Origin: Terriglobia bacterium
GTDB taxonomy: Bacteria > Acidobacteriota > Terriglobia > Versatilivoradales > Versatilivoraceae
Assembly: GCA_022452285.1 (NCBI GenBank)
Contig: JAKUNG010000009.1
Span: forward strand, 109,953 to 173,952
Length of the DNA stretch: 64,000 nt
Reading direction: 5' to 3'
A model generated the notes under the pieces. The model was not told where the DNA came from and searched no databases. It saw only the letters and a list, made by a program, of their open reading frames with translations. The position numbers and the translations under genes are program-made. Below, in pieces: positions 16,915-37,707 of the stretch (its first letter is position 1; each line of letters opens with the position of its first letter).

Positions 16915-18120
16915 ATGAAAACTACATGGAGTTTCCATACCGCTGGGGCTATCCACTTTGGGATTGGAGCTACTGAACAGTTAAGTGAAATAGTGAAAGA
17001 ACTTAAAACTAAACGCGCTCTTTTGGTAACTGATAAAGCTATTGTAAAGGCTGGTTTAGCTGATCATGTCCAATCTAAATTGAGTTCTGGTGGAATTCAA
17101 GTAAAAGCCTTTGATGGTGGTGAACCAGAACCCTCTATTCAAGCCCTTCTCAACTGTTATCAATTTGCAGCAGAATGGACTCCTGACCTCCTAGTTGGAT
17201 TAGGTGGAGGAAGCAACATGGATTTAGCCAAGGTTGTTGGTGTACTTCTTACCTATGGTGGAACTCCTCAAGATTATTTTGGTGAAGGCAAGGTCCCAGG
17301 GCCAATAATTCCACTAATTGCTATCCCAACTACAGCAGGTACTGGTTCAGAGGTCACACATGCAGGAGTTCTGACTGACACCGAAAACAATATCAAGGTC
17401 GCTGTTGCTAGTAACTATTTACGCCCTAATGTAGCTGTTGTTGACCCTCTCATGACGGTTACTTGTCCTCCAAAAGCAACAGCAGATAGTGGCATTGATG
17501 CTCTAACCCATGCAATTGAAGCATACATGGCAACAGACAGTTCTGATCTTGAAGTTCCTGCTGGGGAAATTTCTATTTATCAAGGTCGAATGCCCCTGGG
17601 TAACTGTCTTGTAGAGTCAGCTGTTCCTTTAATCGTCCAACATTTACCTAATGCAGTTAATGATGGTAAAAATATAAAAGCCCGTGAGGGTATGCATTTG
17701 GGAGCTTTGATTGCAGGGATGGGTTTTAGTAACGTTGGTGTTGGAGCAGTTCATGCCTTGGAATATCCAATCGGTGGTGCAGTTCATTGTTCTCATGGTT
17801 GTGGTAACGGTTTACTCTTGCCCTATGTAATGAAATTTAATAAACCTGTCAGACTGGAAGCATTGGCTAGACTAGCTGAACTAATGGGAGTTAATGTAGA
17901 GGGGCTGACCCAAGAAGAAAAGGCTGATGCAGCTATTAATAAAGTTCGTACTTTAAGAAAAGAAATTGGAATTCCTGACAAACTCAGAGAAATTGGTGTT
18001 CAAGAAAACCAACTTCATTCTTTTGCAGAAATGGCCTTAAACATCAAACGACTGATGCGTAGTAACCCCCGATCACCAACAGTAGATGATTTGGAAGAAA
18101 TCCTTAAAGATGCTTACTGA
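16915..18120 (+). CDS. Iron-containing alcohol dehydrogenase
   Basis: This is a group III metal-dependent alcohol dehydrogenase of 401 aa. NAD(P) is bound by GGGS (97-100) and TTAGTGSE (139-146). The metal site is D195 and H199 (DALTHAIE), H280 (HALEYPIGG) and H294 (SHGCGN). GGAGGAG precedes the ATG closely. Compared with common members there is a 20- to 25-residue insert after residue ~206 (DSSDLEVPAGE...), before the active-site helix, which may shape the substrate pocket. Likely reactions are reduction of aldehydes or oxidation of primary alcohols, lactaldehyde or 4-hydroxybutyrate; the exact substrate is unknown. Confidence 0.92.
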   Translation: MKTTWSFHTAGAIHFGIGATEQLSEIVKELKTKRALLVTDKAIVKAGLADHVQSKLSSGGIQVKAFDGGEPEPSIQALLNCYQFAAEWTPDLLVGLGGGSNMDLAKVVGVLLTYGGTPQDYFGEGKVPGPIIPLIAIPTTAGTGSEVTHAGVLTDTENNIKVAVASNYLRPNVAVVDPLMTVTCPPKATADSGIDALTHAIEAYMATDSSDLEVPAGEISIYQGRMPLGNCLVESAVPLIVQHLPNAVNDGKNIKAREGMHLGALIAGMGFSNVGVGAVHALEYPIGGAVHCSHGCGNGLLLPYVMKFNKPVRLEALARLAELMGVNVEGLTQEEKADAAINKVRTLRKEIGIPDKLREIGVQENQLHSFAEMALNIKRLMRSNPRSPTVDDLEEILKDAY

Positions 18121-34013: not shown

Positions 34014-35123
34014 TCAAGTGAGATGGGCACCCTGTGTCTCTACATAGACAGCATAAAGAGACTGACTACCTGTCATAAACAACCGATTCCGCTTGGTACC
34101 TCCAAAACAAACATTAGAACAAATTTCAGGGAGTTTAATTAGACCAATACGATCTCCAGTCGAAGAGAAAATGTGTACTCCGTCATATCCATCTCCTACC
34201 CAACCAGCACTAGCCCATATATTGCCATCAACATCCGCTCGGATTCCATCGGCAAAACCTGATTTTCCATTAAGTTCCATGGAAGAAAATTCTCTTCCAT
34301 TTTTCAGTTTGCTCTTATCTTTAATATCCCAAACTTTAATGTTTTTAGGAGCTTGAGGATAATGGGATCCGCCTGTATCAGCTACATACAGTTTTTTATA
34401 ATCTGGCGAAAAACACAGGCCGTTGGGTTTATAAATTTCATCCGACATTTTTTTAATTTTCCCGTTCTGTAAATCAATACGATAGATAGCTTCCTTCTGA
34501 AATGGCTGGGGAGACCCCGTATTCATTCGGTTCCCTTCATAGTTCATGAGACTGCCATACCCAGGATCGGTAAACCATACTGCACCATCTTCTGGATGGA
34601 CAACTGCGTCATTAGGGGCATTAAGTTGCTTGCCCCCATAAGAATCTGCCAAAACTGTTGTTTTACCATCGTACTCATATCGAACGACTCGCCGATTTCC
34701 GTGCTCACATGAAATTTGTCGACCTTGAAAGTCAAAAGTATTGCCATTGGAATTTCCTGAAGGGAAACGAAAACGGCGCGTCACATGGCCATCTTCTTCT
34801 AACCATCGAAGTTGCTCATTATTAGGGATGTCACTCCATAATAGGTATCGACCAACACCATTCCAAGCAGGACCCTCCGCCCAGAGAGTTCCCTTATATA
34901 ATCGTAAAATTGGGGAATTTCCCAGCTTGTACTTTTTAAAACGTTTGTCCAGAACAACTACATCTGGTTCGGGATAACGAACTGGCTCAGCATCTCGACC
35001 AAAATTTCGACTAAATGCTTCCTGACTCATTGCAGTTATTGCAGCTAAGCGAGCAGCATTTCCGATAAAAGATCTTCGAGAAATTTCGATGCTAGTTTTT
35101 GAAAAAAATACTTTTCTTTTCAT
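34014..35123 (-). CDS. SMP-30/gluconolactonase-like protein, Tat-exported
   Basis: This 369-aa calcium-dependent propeller protein resembles gluconolactonases. A Tat signal (SRRSFIGNAARLAAI, residues ~14-28) precedes the propeller. Metal/active-site residues are in LWAEGPAWN (Glu), LNAPNDAVVH (Asn), KPNGLCFSPDY (Asn) and GFADGIRADVDGNIW (Asp). AGAGGAGA is 5-6 nt before the ATG. The enzyme would hydrolyse sugar lactones in the periplasm. The cytoplasmic form is more common in proteobacteria, while Tat-exported forms occur in planctomycetes and acidobacteria. It is divergent from the selenoprotein gene; a functional link is not suggested by this alone. Confidence 0.92.
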   Translation of the reverse strand: MKRKVFFSKTSIEISRRSFIGNAARLAAITAMSQEAFSRNFGRDAEPVRYPEPDVVVLDKRFKKYKLGNSPILRLYKGTLWAEGPAWNGVGRYLLWSDIPNNEQLRWLEEDGHVTRRFRFPSGNSNGNTFDFQGRQISCEHGNRRVVRYEYDGKTTVLADSYGGKQLNAPNDAVVHPEDGAVWFTDPGYGSLMNYEGNRMNTGSPQPFQKEAIYRIDLQNGKIKKMSDEIYKPNGLCFSPDYKKLYVADTGGSHYPQAPKNIKVWDIKDKSKLKNGREFSSMELNGKSGFADGIRADVDGNIWASAGWVGDGYDGVHIFSSTGDRIGLIKLPEICSNVCFGGTKRNRLFMTGSQSLYAVYVETQGAHLT

Positions 35124-35354: not shown

Positions 35355-36488
35355 ATGAGTAAAACTAAAATCTTTTTGGCCTGGTTTTTAGTTCTTTGTC
35401 TCATAGAAATAGCTCTTACTCAAATCAGAGGAATAGACCACTTAGCTTCTTCTAGGTCAGCAATAAATAATTTTGAGAAACAAGCACCTAAAATTGGGTC
35501 TAAATTACCAGCATTAAAGGTTTTTGATGAAAATGGTATGAATTTTAATACCAGTAGTTTAATAGGGAATTATACCGTCTTGGTATTCGGATGTTTAACG
35601 TGACCAAGCTTTCTGAATAACGTCCCCAGTTTGGAGACGGTTCGAAATGATTTTGCTCCCAAGGGAGTTAAATTTTATTACATCTATAAATCCTTAGCTC
35701 ATCCAGGACTCCGCGGATATGTTTCGCCATTGACCATACAAGAACGATTGATGCATGTGCATGAGGCTAAACGATTACTGAGGTCAAAGATTCCATGGCT
35801 CTGTGACACTATGGATAACGATCTTAAACATGCCCTAGGCAATGCCCAAAATTCTGAGTTCTTGATTGATCCTGAAGGAAAAGTAATAACACGACAACCT
35901 TGGAGTCATCCGGGAAAACTTAGAACAGTGCTAGAAACCATAATAGGCCCTGTAGATCGGCCTACAACTGTAAGTGAATTGGGTTCAGAATTTATTGTTA
36001 AATGGCCTTCCTCTAAAATTCCATCTGGTCTAATTCCAAAACTCCAGCTACCTAACAAAATGGTCCCTTTAACAATCCTTCCCTTAAAGCAAGAAAGTTC
36101 TCTTCCCTTCTATGTAAAGTTACATGCACAAGTTGACCATTCTTTTCTAGATCATGGTAAAGGCAAACTATATCTTGGTTTTTTTTTAGATCCCATCTAC
36201 AAAGTCCACTGGAACAACCTTACAAAACCTCTTGAATTTAGTCTCAAAATTCCCACAGGTGTTAAGATTTCTCCGACTAAAGGGTTTGCCGCTAAGGTTA
36301 AAGAACCAGCTGACAAGGATCCTCGTGAATTTATTCTAGCTATTGACTCTAGTAACTATGAGCAACCACTGGTTCTTAAAACCCGCTACTTTGCCTGCGA
36401 TGACGCTGACACTTTTTGTGTTCCAGTGACCCAGCAATATTCAGTTTATCTAAAACCTGATTTGGATGGAGGATCAATGCAGCAATAA
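35355..36488 (+). CDS. Selenoprotein: deiodinase-like thioredoxin-fold domain fused to a DsbD N-terminal-like domain (in-frame UGA = Sec)
   Basis: This is one reading frame interrupted only by TGA at 35601-35603. Reading TGA as Sec gives 377 aa with Sec83 in VFGCLTUPSF, corresponding to the FGSCTUPPF active site of iodothyronine deiodinases. AHP at 115-117 and DTMDN at 151-155 match the vertebrate enzymes' EAHP and DTMQN. The Sec is preceded by C80, making C-x-x-U, a redox pair rather than the vertebrate C-T-U. Residues ~5-22 are a signal anchor. From ~200 the second domain ends with RYFACDDADTFC (C348-x6-C355), like the C-x5-C disulfide region of DsbD's periplasmic N-terminal domain. A SECIS-like hairpin follows the TGA. 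A frame-preserving sequence error is the alternative. Probably a periplasm-facing thiol/selenol oxidoreductase, not necessarily a deiodinase. Confidence 0.9.
35621..35639 (+). promoter_or_regulatory. Candidate bacterial SECIS element
   Basis: Immediately after the Sec UGA, CGUCCCC (35621-35627) pairs with GGAGACG (35633-35639), giving six pairs and one C-A mismatch (35625/35635). The loop is AGUUU, with G in the second position. The distance from UGA to the loop is 24 nt. Bacterial SECIS rules, as remembered, call for a stem with a G in the first two loop bases and 16-37 nt spacing, all satisfied. SelB would bind here. It lies within the coding sequence. Confidence 0.7.
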
Positions 36489-36675: not shown

Positions 36676-37707
36676 ATGGAACAAGCACTTCAGTCATTTG
36701 TCTCTACTCAACATTGGGTTGTCGTAGCCGGCTTATTTTTGGTGAGTCTTCTGATCTTAGCTAAAGCAGCAGACTGGTTAATTGATTCAGCTGTAATCTT
36801 GTCAGAACAATCAAAAATTCCAAAGGTGGTGATTGGCGCCACAATTGTGAGTCTGGGAACTACCACTCCCGAAGTAGCTATTTCCGTTTTAGCAGCAGCT
36901 CGTGGCCAATCCAGTCTAGCTCTGGGTAATGCGGTTGGTTCTGTCATTTGTAATACCGGCCTGATCCTTGGCCTCTCCTGTCTTTTGGCTCCACCTAAAA
37001 TCAATCATAAAATATTAAATCGCCAAAATACTATCCAAGTAATAGCTTTACTGTTTTTGGTTTTAGCTTGCTTTCCTTGGCAATCTCCTGGGAATGTATT
37101 TACCCAGGGTGGCCAAATTTCTCAACTGTTAGCTCTAGTTCTATTAATAGGCCTTGCAGGATTTACCTGGCAATCAGTGCGTCTGGCTAAAAATATTGAC
37201 CCAACCTTACATGAGACACAAGATCACGAAGAACACACCTCTATTTTAGTTATTGTTGGGAAGCTCATTGGAGCTATCATATTAGTAGTTATTTCAGCTC
37301 GCATTCTTCTTCCAACAGTTACTGAAACAGCTATTAGGTGGAATGTCCCCGAAAGTGTTATTGCGGCCACGTTAGTTGCTTTTGGAACTTCCTTGCCTGA
37401 ACTAGTTGTTACAGTAATTGCAGCCCTAAAGGCTCATGGTGAGTTAGCTCTCGGTAATATAATAGGGGCCAATATTCTCAATATACTTTTTGTTGTCGGG
37501 GCTGCAGGGGTAGTAGCACAAGAGGGATTAACGGCTGGACCTCATTTTTTTATCATCCTTTTTCCTGTAATGCTGATACTTCTGGTTATCTTAACTGTTG
37601 GGCTGCAGAGCAATCAGAAAAAACTACAACGGTCTTACGGAATTATTCTGCTCTCAATCTATGTCATCTATACAGTCATTAACTATGTTGTCAAAAGTTC
37701 CAGTTAA
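36676..37707 (+). CDS. Sodium/calcium exchanger (CaCA family, YrbG-like)
   Basis: This 343-aa membrane protein has about 10 transmembrane segments and two inverted alpha repeats. Repeat 1 has ATIVSLGTTTPEVAISV and ALGNAVGSVICNTGLILG. Repeat 2 has ATLVAFGTSLPELVVTVIAA and ALGNIIGANILNILFVVG. The Glu in each T-(T/S)-x-P-E and the Asn residues form the cation sites. It exchanges Ca2+ for Na+ or K+ across the inner membrane. The ribosome site AAGGCG is 6-8 nt before the ATG. It follows the selenoprotein by 187 nt and is probably separate. Confidence 0.94.
   Translation: MEQALQSFVSTQHWVVVAGLFLVSLLILAKAADWLIDSAVILSEQSKIPKVVIGATIVSLGTTTPEVAISVLAAARGQSSLALGNAVGSVICNTGLILGLSCLLAPPKINHKILNRQNTIQVIALLFLVLACFPWQSPGNVFTQGGQISQLLALVLLIGLAGFTWQSVRLAKNIDPTLHETQDHEEHTSILVIVGKLIGAIILVVISARILLPTVTETAIRWNVPESVIAATLVAFGTSLPELVVTVIAALKAHGELALGNIIGANILNILFVVGAAGVVAQEGLTAGPHFFIILFPVMLILLVILTVGLQSNQKKLQRSYGIILLSIYVIYTVINYVVKSSS

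Follow-up and report, generated by a model that had tools for sequence, protein, structure and literature searches.

A predicted bacterial selenoprotein joining a deiodinase-like Cys-x-x-Sec domain to a DsbD_N-like domain

Bacterial deiodinase-like selenoproteins (PF00837) were described from the Sargasso Sea in 2005 (PMC1088965) and from the Global Ocean Sampling (GOS) data in 2008 (PMC2398784), and an inventory of 119 selenoprotein families from 2026 gives the deiodinase-like family as UxxC (PMC13188914). A CxxU motif was recorded in GOS 2008 for the Trx-like 1 selenoproteins, which were placed in COG0526 TrxA (PMC2398784), and fusions of Prx-like (U/CxxC) with PF11412 and of deiodinase-like with EF-hand domains were reported among marine selenoproteins in 2021 (PMC9402790). 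Glutathione-driven re-reduction of DIO1 requires Cys124, which stands two residues before the selenocysteine (Sec); precisely how deiodinases are re-reduced is described as unclarified (PMC9141512). Here we analyze a gene at positions 35355 to 36488 of a 64,000-nucleotide stretch of contig JAKUNG010000009.1 from a Terriglobia bacterium (the window), in which an in-frame TGA (35601 to 35603) is predicted to encode Sec83. In the sections of the 2026 inventory on selenoprotein families, its architecture stands under no entry (PMC13188914). On balance, and with little more than even confidence, we take the product to be a likely exported two-domain selenoenzyme in which a Cys80-x-x-Sec83 domain would reduce an oxidized substrate and a Cys348/Cys355 domain would probably re-reduce the first.

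The in-frame UGA as a selenocysteine codon

The first-pass annotation of the window had proposed that two open frames of the same phase, split by one TGA, form a single selenoprotein that gene calling would miss. Coordinates, phase and the 377-residue product were all confirmed: the TGA is the sole stop within the frame, residues 77 to 86 of the read-through product are VFGCLTUPSF, and Cys80 and Sec83 stand where they had been placed. Called mechanically on its own, the downstream half starts at a TTG at 35631. The window holds four in-phase TGA-split pairs with 60 or more codons ahead of the TGA and 80 or more behind it, counted stop to stop, this one among them.

A scan of GTDB contigs yielded 36 related loci, of which 31 cover the TGA site and 5 match the C-terminal part only. 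At the Sec site all 31 carry TGA, as GCLTU, with 42 to 64% identity to the window; because the frame is kept before and after the TGA in every one of them, a chance split is excluded, and homologues ending at this TGA, which would have spoken for a real stop, were not seen among these loci. Two protein searches with 937 and 642 matches, the best 120 of each being listed, gave 207 different relatives in total; proteins were limited to 0.55 to 1.75 times the query length, which keeps short N-terminal fragments out of the list. Among the listed relatives, 24 span the site, and 23 of these have Cys at both columns 80 and 83. In the exception, P0140 (VFGDLTNASF), Asn at 83 and Asp at 80 mark a joint loss, while Cys348 and Cys355 are retained; its nearest neighbor in the tree is L035, which has TGA. 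Cys80 is Cys in all 30 rows of alignment A2. The other 183 listed relatives start downstream of the site (122 of their alignments at residue 93), some of them under the database name EF-hand domain-containing protein, which bears out the expectation that gene calling hides the selenoprotein.

The family is carried by Acidobacteriota, Planctomycetota and Verrucomicrobiota. Among 247 sampled Acidobacteriota genomes, 8 (the window's own included) carry it in 10 matches, nine with TGA and a tenth that starts past the site. In a tree of 54 members, whose 24 non-Sec rows include P0140, the Sec/non-Sec label switches five times on the best tree, and at least two switches are forced by well-supported branches.

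The window's genome (3.24 Mb in 87 contigs, estimated contamination 7%) encodes all four components of the Sec machinery that the first-pass annotation had named as a check: tRNA-Sec (selC; anticodon TCA, 65.9 bits, called tRNA-SeC by ARAGORN), SelA (545.4 bits), SelB (339.6 bits) and SelD (340.8 bits). SelD (L073, G000:C1:113647-114576, minus strand) has an in-frame TGA at its own active site, SCAGUASKL, and is therefore a second likely selenoprotein in this genome. Of 29 carrier genomes, 26 had SelB above the cut-off, versus 161 of 246 sampled Planctomycetota (Fisher P = 0.006, shared genome taken out of the sample).

Downstream of the codon, we aligned 42 nucleotides from the TGA onward in 32 sequences (31 distinct), without gaps. 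A stem that starts 17 nucleotides past the TGA and closes on a GUU loop is conserved, with 87.5% of cells paired (at most 57.3% in slid versions of the stem). Changes on both sides of the stem were found in 17 cells; shuffles gave 4.7, and none of the 500 reached the observed count. Under a synonymous-codon null, 217 of 248 cells were paired versus 206.4 expected (SD, 1.8; 0 of 2,000 as high). From the alignment alone, RNAalifold returned the same stem except for one inner mismatch. The Leu codon past the loop is TTG after AGT in 22 of 23 cases and CTG after GGT in 8 of 8. The features by which a bacterial Sec insertion sequence (SECIS) is recognized, a stem-loop just 3' of the UGA with a G in a small apical loop, are present here in a comparative stem with compensatory changes.

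Several results weigh against Sec insertion. Folded as a single sequence, the SECIS region does not stand out (z = -0.57), the Rfam SECIS families gave zero matches to the stem-loop, covarying pairs (2) and further pair types (6) did not exceed shuffles (counts reached in 191 and 330 of the 500, respectively), and the outermost stem pair is broken in 5 of the 31 distinct sequences. The Sec genes lie on contigs other than the window's in an assembly with the contamination given above, and SelB fell below the cut-off in 3 of the 29 carrier genomes. Taken with the comparisons across loci and proteins, we regard the selenoprotein reading of 35355 to 36488 as well supported.

The two predicted domains and their surroundings

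The first domain is predicted to adopt the deiodinase fold, with Cys80-x-x-Sec83 as its active site. When 1,000 chains of solved structures were realigned to the model and ranked by VIA Z, Dio2 and Dio3 took ranks 1 and 2; ranking by Foldseek E value put DipZ and ResA first. Likeness to the T4_deiodinase family PF00837, for which a search had been suggested, held for the family (30 of 30 members at E ≤ 0.01; 27.6 bits in relative P0029) but fell short for the window protein itself (25.4 bits; gathering score, 27). Against NCBIfam NF038285 (deiodinase_rel) the window protein scored 37.3 bits, compared to a curated cut-off of 250.

The proton relay of deiodinases (Ser, Thr, Tyr, Glu, His, His) is incomplete: Thr82, Tyr111 and His116 are retained, Ser is replaced by Cys80, and Glu is replaced by Leu114. 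The second relay His presumably falls within a stretch of Dio3 that has no counterpart here, eight residues between AHP and SLEDR being absent from the family profile. Of the match to vertebrate EAHP that had been noted earlier, AHP stands and the Glu does not; the window protein has LAHP, with Leu (27) or Val (3) at this position in the 30 A2 members. At Sec+3 all 30 members have Phe, and all 30 have the partner Cys at -3. The first-pass interpretation of the site, a thiol/selenol redox role rather than iodide removal, is supported. Three loci of same-class genomes (L061, L069 and L070) hold another deiodinase-like frame, whose TGA stands in FGSYTU or FGSHTU and of which only the first domain matched the window protein.

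Judged from sequence and model, the second domain resembles the N-terminal domain of DsbD and carries a putative redox Cys pair. PF11412 was found in 19 of 28 A4 members at E ≤ 1 (best, 1.8e-5), scored 23.0 bits in P0116 (gathering score, 25) and is precomputed on 5 of the 120 listed rows of one protein search. The top three Foldseek matches were DsbD-alpha (best E, 2.2e-3), and hhalign against the N-terminal family of the genome's own DsbD gave P = 2.3e-4. All 30 A2 rows and all 183 listed relatives truncated at the N terminus have Cys at both 348 and 355; of the 24 listed spanning proteins, one (P0170) has a gap at Cys355. Other results speak against this likeness: the window's own C-terminal domain has no PF11412 match, PF11412 reaches E ≤ 0.01 in just 5 of 30 full members, no Foldseek match of the domain reaches E 0.001, its VIA Z to DsbD-alpha (6.8) lies under that to several other immunoglobulin-like (Ig-like) folds, and the hhalign probability is 44%, in an alignment that brings the first Cys into register but not the second, because the Cys spacing differs. 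In 16 of 31 loci the second domain is followed by an EF-hand motif, and in 1 of 31 such a motif lies ahead of the catalytic domain; the Pfam scan gave no EF-hand match in the window protein. Seven loci (L019, L027, L031, L034, L036, L041 and L044) have a C-terminal extension other than EF-hand, alike by eye.

Residues 1 to 24 are likely a signal peptide or membrane anchor, to judge by sequence and model, and the N termini of homologues have signal-peptide-like stretches as judged by eye. A complete DsbD of 629 residues (DsbD_N, DsbD_TM and thioredoxin) is encoded in the window's genome, and its coupling to the selenoprotein would supply the electrons. This dsbD shares a contig with selB, from which it is separated by about 7.5 kb (G000:C1:571521-582785).

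Nature has separated the two parts in loci that keep only the second domain. In a protein search of 11 same-family relatives, 6, all of one other genus, had the C-terminal part alone and the other 5 had nothing; SelB exceeded the cut-off in 10 of the 11. All five long loci of this kind (L047 to L051) place the second domain between the SGL and Na+/Ca2+ exchanger genes, the arrangement of the window, with the same thiamine pyrophosphate (TPP) enzyme following; in 4 of 5, DUF1566-like and FxsA genes also follow. In L048 and L049, the two loci examined closely, an extra gene separates SGL from the domain; Pfam assigns it to MatE in L049, and the L048 gene starts nearly the same. The stand-alone domain likely has its own signal peptide and keeps both Cys. 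Because the fusion occurs under titles of three phyla, the Sec domain was probably lost in the other genus, and the second domain would be able to work alone. Coordinates are collected in Table 1. Elsewhere in the window, at 18118, a TGA ends a 422-codon frame that is followed by 83 further codons in phase.

Table 1. Positions of the selenoprotein gene, its parts and its neighbors in the window
Feature	Position	Strand	Basis or remark
Whole selenoprotein gene	35355..36488	+	377 aa with TGA 35601-35603 as Sec
N-terminal hydrophobic helix, residues 1-24	35355..35426	+	Sequence; predicted model has helix 3-24
Deiodinase-fold (thioredoxin-like) catalytic domain (predicted), residues 42-199	35478..35951	+	
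Cys80 (Sec-3), putative resolving residue	35592..35594	+	Conservation in alignment and listed proteins
In-frame TGA, predicted selenocysteine 83	35601..35603	+	TGA in loci, Cys in proteins, genomic Sec machinery
Bacterial SECIS-like stem-loop	35621..35639	+	Apical loop GUU at 35629-35631
C-terminal Ig-like domain, DsbD N-terminal-like, residues 236-368	36060..36458	+	PF11412, Foldseek, hhalign
Cys348, putative second redox pair	36396..36398	+	
Cys355, putative second redox pair	36417..36419	+	
SMP-30/gluconolactonase-like (SGL) gene, divergent neighbor	34014..35123	-	Synteny conserved
Na+/Ca2+ exchanger gene, downstream neighbor	36676..37707	+	Synteny conserved

Proposed function and its alternatives

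In the mechanism we propose, the UGA would be decoded as Sec by SelB and tRNA-Sec with the aid of the stem-loop, a step for which the comparative evidence is strong, and the N-terminal helix and the signal-peptide-like starts of homologues suggest that the protein would be exported to the periplasm. Sec83 would there attack the oxidized substrate, for which a peroxide or another small electrophile is the likeliest candidate, and become oxidized; Cys80 would resolve the oxidized Sec83, giving a Cys80-Sec83 selenenylsulfide. This part is assigned to Cys80 because it is invariant, is lost jointly with Sec in one homologue and has a precedent in DIO1 Cys124 (PMC9141512). The Cys348/Cys355 dithiol would then reduce the Cys80-Sec83 bond, and the membrane reductase DsbD would in turn reduce the dithiol. 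That electrons pass from DsbD through Cys348/Cys355 to Cys80-Sec83 within one exported polypeptide, a DsbD_N-type carrier serving a selenoenzyme in cis, we offer tentatively, as a proposal a little short of evenly balanced.

Neither plain deiodination nor plain disulfide reduction of the TlpA type agrees well with the lack of the relay Glu and of a second Cys in CxxC. The enzyme might still be a Dio-like reductive dehalogenase that takes I or Br off environmental aromatics, with the C-terminal domain as its reductant; we think this unlikely, given Cys80 in place of the relay Ser at Sec-3, Leu114 in place of the relay Glu (a position that is Leu or Val throughout A2), the eight Dio3 residues between AHP and SLEDR that lack a counterpart in the profile, and nine Pfam-scanned neighbor genes of which none, judging by names, is of a known halogen-related family. 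A TlpA/ResA-type thiol-disulfide reductase acting on protein disulfides or in cytochrome c assembly, with Sec replacing the first Cys, draws on the high rank of ResA and TlpA-like chains by fold and by profile and on Cys relative P0195, which carries the name TlpA family protein disulfide reductase. It is improbable to a similar degree, as the second Cys of CxxC is absent (Phe at +3, with the partner Cys upstream at -3, throughout A2) and none of seven recurring neighbor groups inspected by eye is cytochrome-assembly-like. That the TGA is a true stop or a sequencing error, in a pseudogene or before a shorter protein starting downstream, agrees with the 183 listed relatives that gene callers begin past the site and is very improbable, conservation bringing it close to refutation: frame and protein similarity continue across the TGA in 31 of 31 loci, Cys takes its place in relatives, SECIS-like covariation is present and the genome has the full Sec gene set.

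Comparison with described systems

A bacterial enzyme with a deiodinase-type predicted fold and a fused DsbD-like dithiol domain is a testable system for the re-reduction step and, if the two-domain selenoenzyme proposed here is real, would be a bacterial solution to the re-reduction of deiodinase-type enzymes. The splitting of the family into fragments in databases shows how selenoproteins are concealed by gene calling.

With the bacterial deiodinase-like selenoproteins in print, the family shares deiodinase-like sequence, Sec and Cys forms and a bacterial SECIS; theirs is given as UxxC (PMC13188914, Table 1) or without a motif (PMC2398784, Table 2), whereas here CxxU is joined to a DsbD_N-like domain. 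The Trx-like 1 form is likewise a thioredoxin-like selenoprotein with CxxU but, compared by description only, belongs to COG0526 TrxA, in an account where a second domain is not mentioned (PMC2398784). The Prx-like/PF11412 fusion, also compared by description only, joins a redoxin selenoprotein to PF11412 as well (named DsbC in that paper), but is Prx-like with U/CxxC instead of CxxU/C (PMC9402790); it may overlap with the present family. The deiodinase-like/EF-hand fusion (PMC9402790) and NF038285 share the deiodinase-like domain, and 16 of 31 loci here also have an EF-hand motif, whereas the window protein lies under the NF038285 cut-off and is without an EF-hand match.

The second domain is like nDsbD (PF11412) in its predicted Ig-like fold, its conserved Cys pair near the C-terminal strand and its likely export. 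It differs in being fused to a selenoenzyme or standing alone instead of being joined to the DsbD membrane domain, and in its Cys spacing, C-x6-C in the family versus C-x4-C in the genome's own DsbD. Vertebrate Dio1-3 are alike in predicted fold, in the FG..TUPPF site, in the relay Tyr and one His and in having a Cys near Sec; the family described here differs from them in having that Cys at -3 and not at -2, in the replacement of the relay Ser and Glu, in being bacterial and in its second redox domain.
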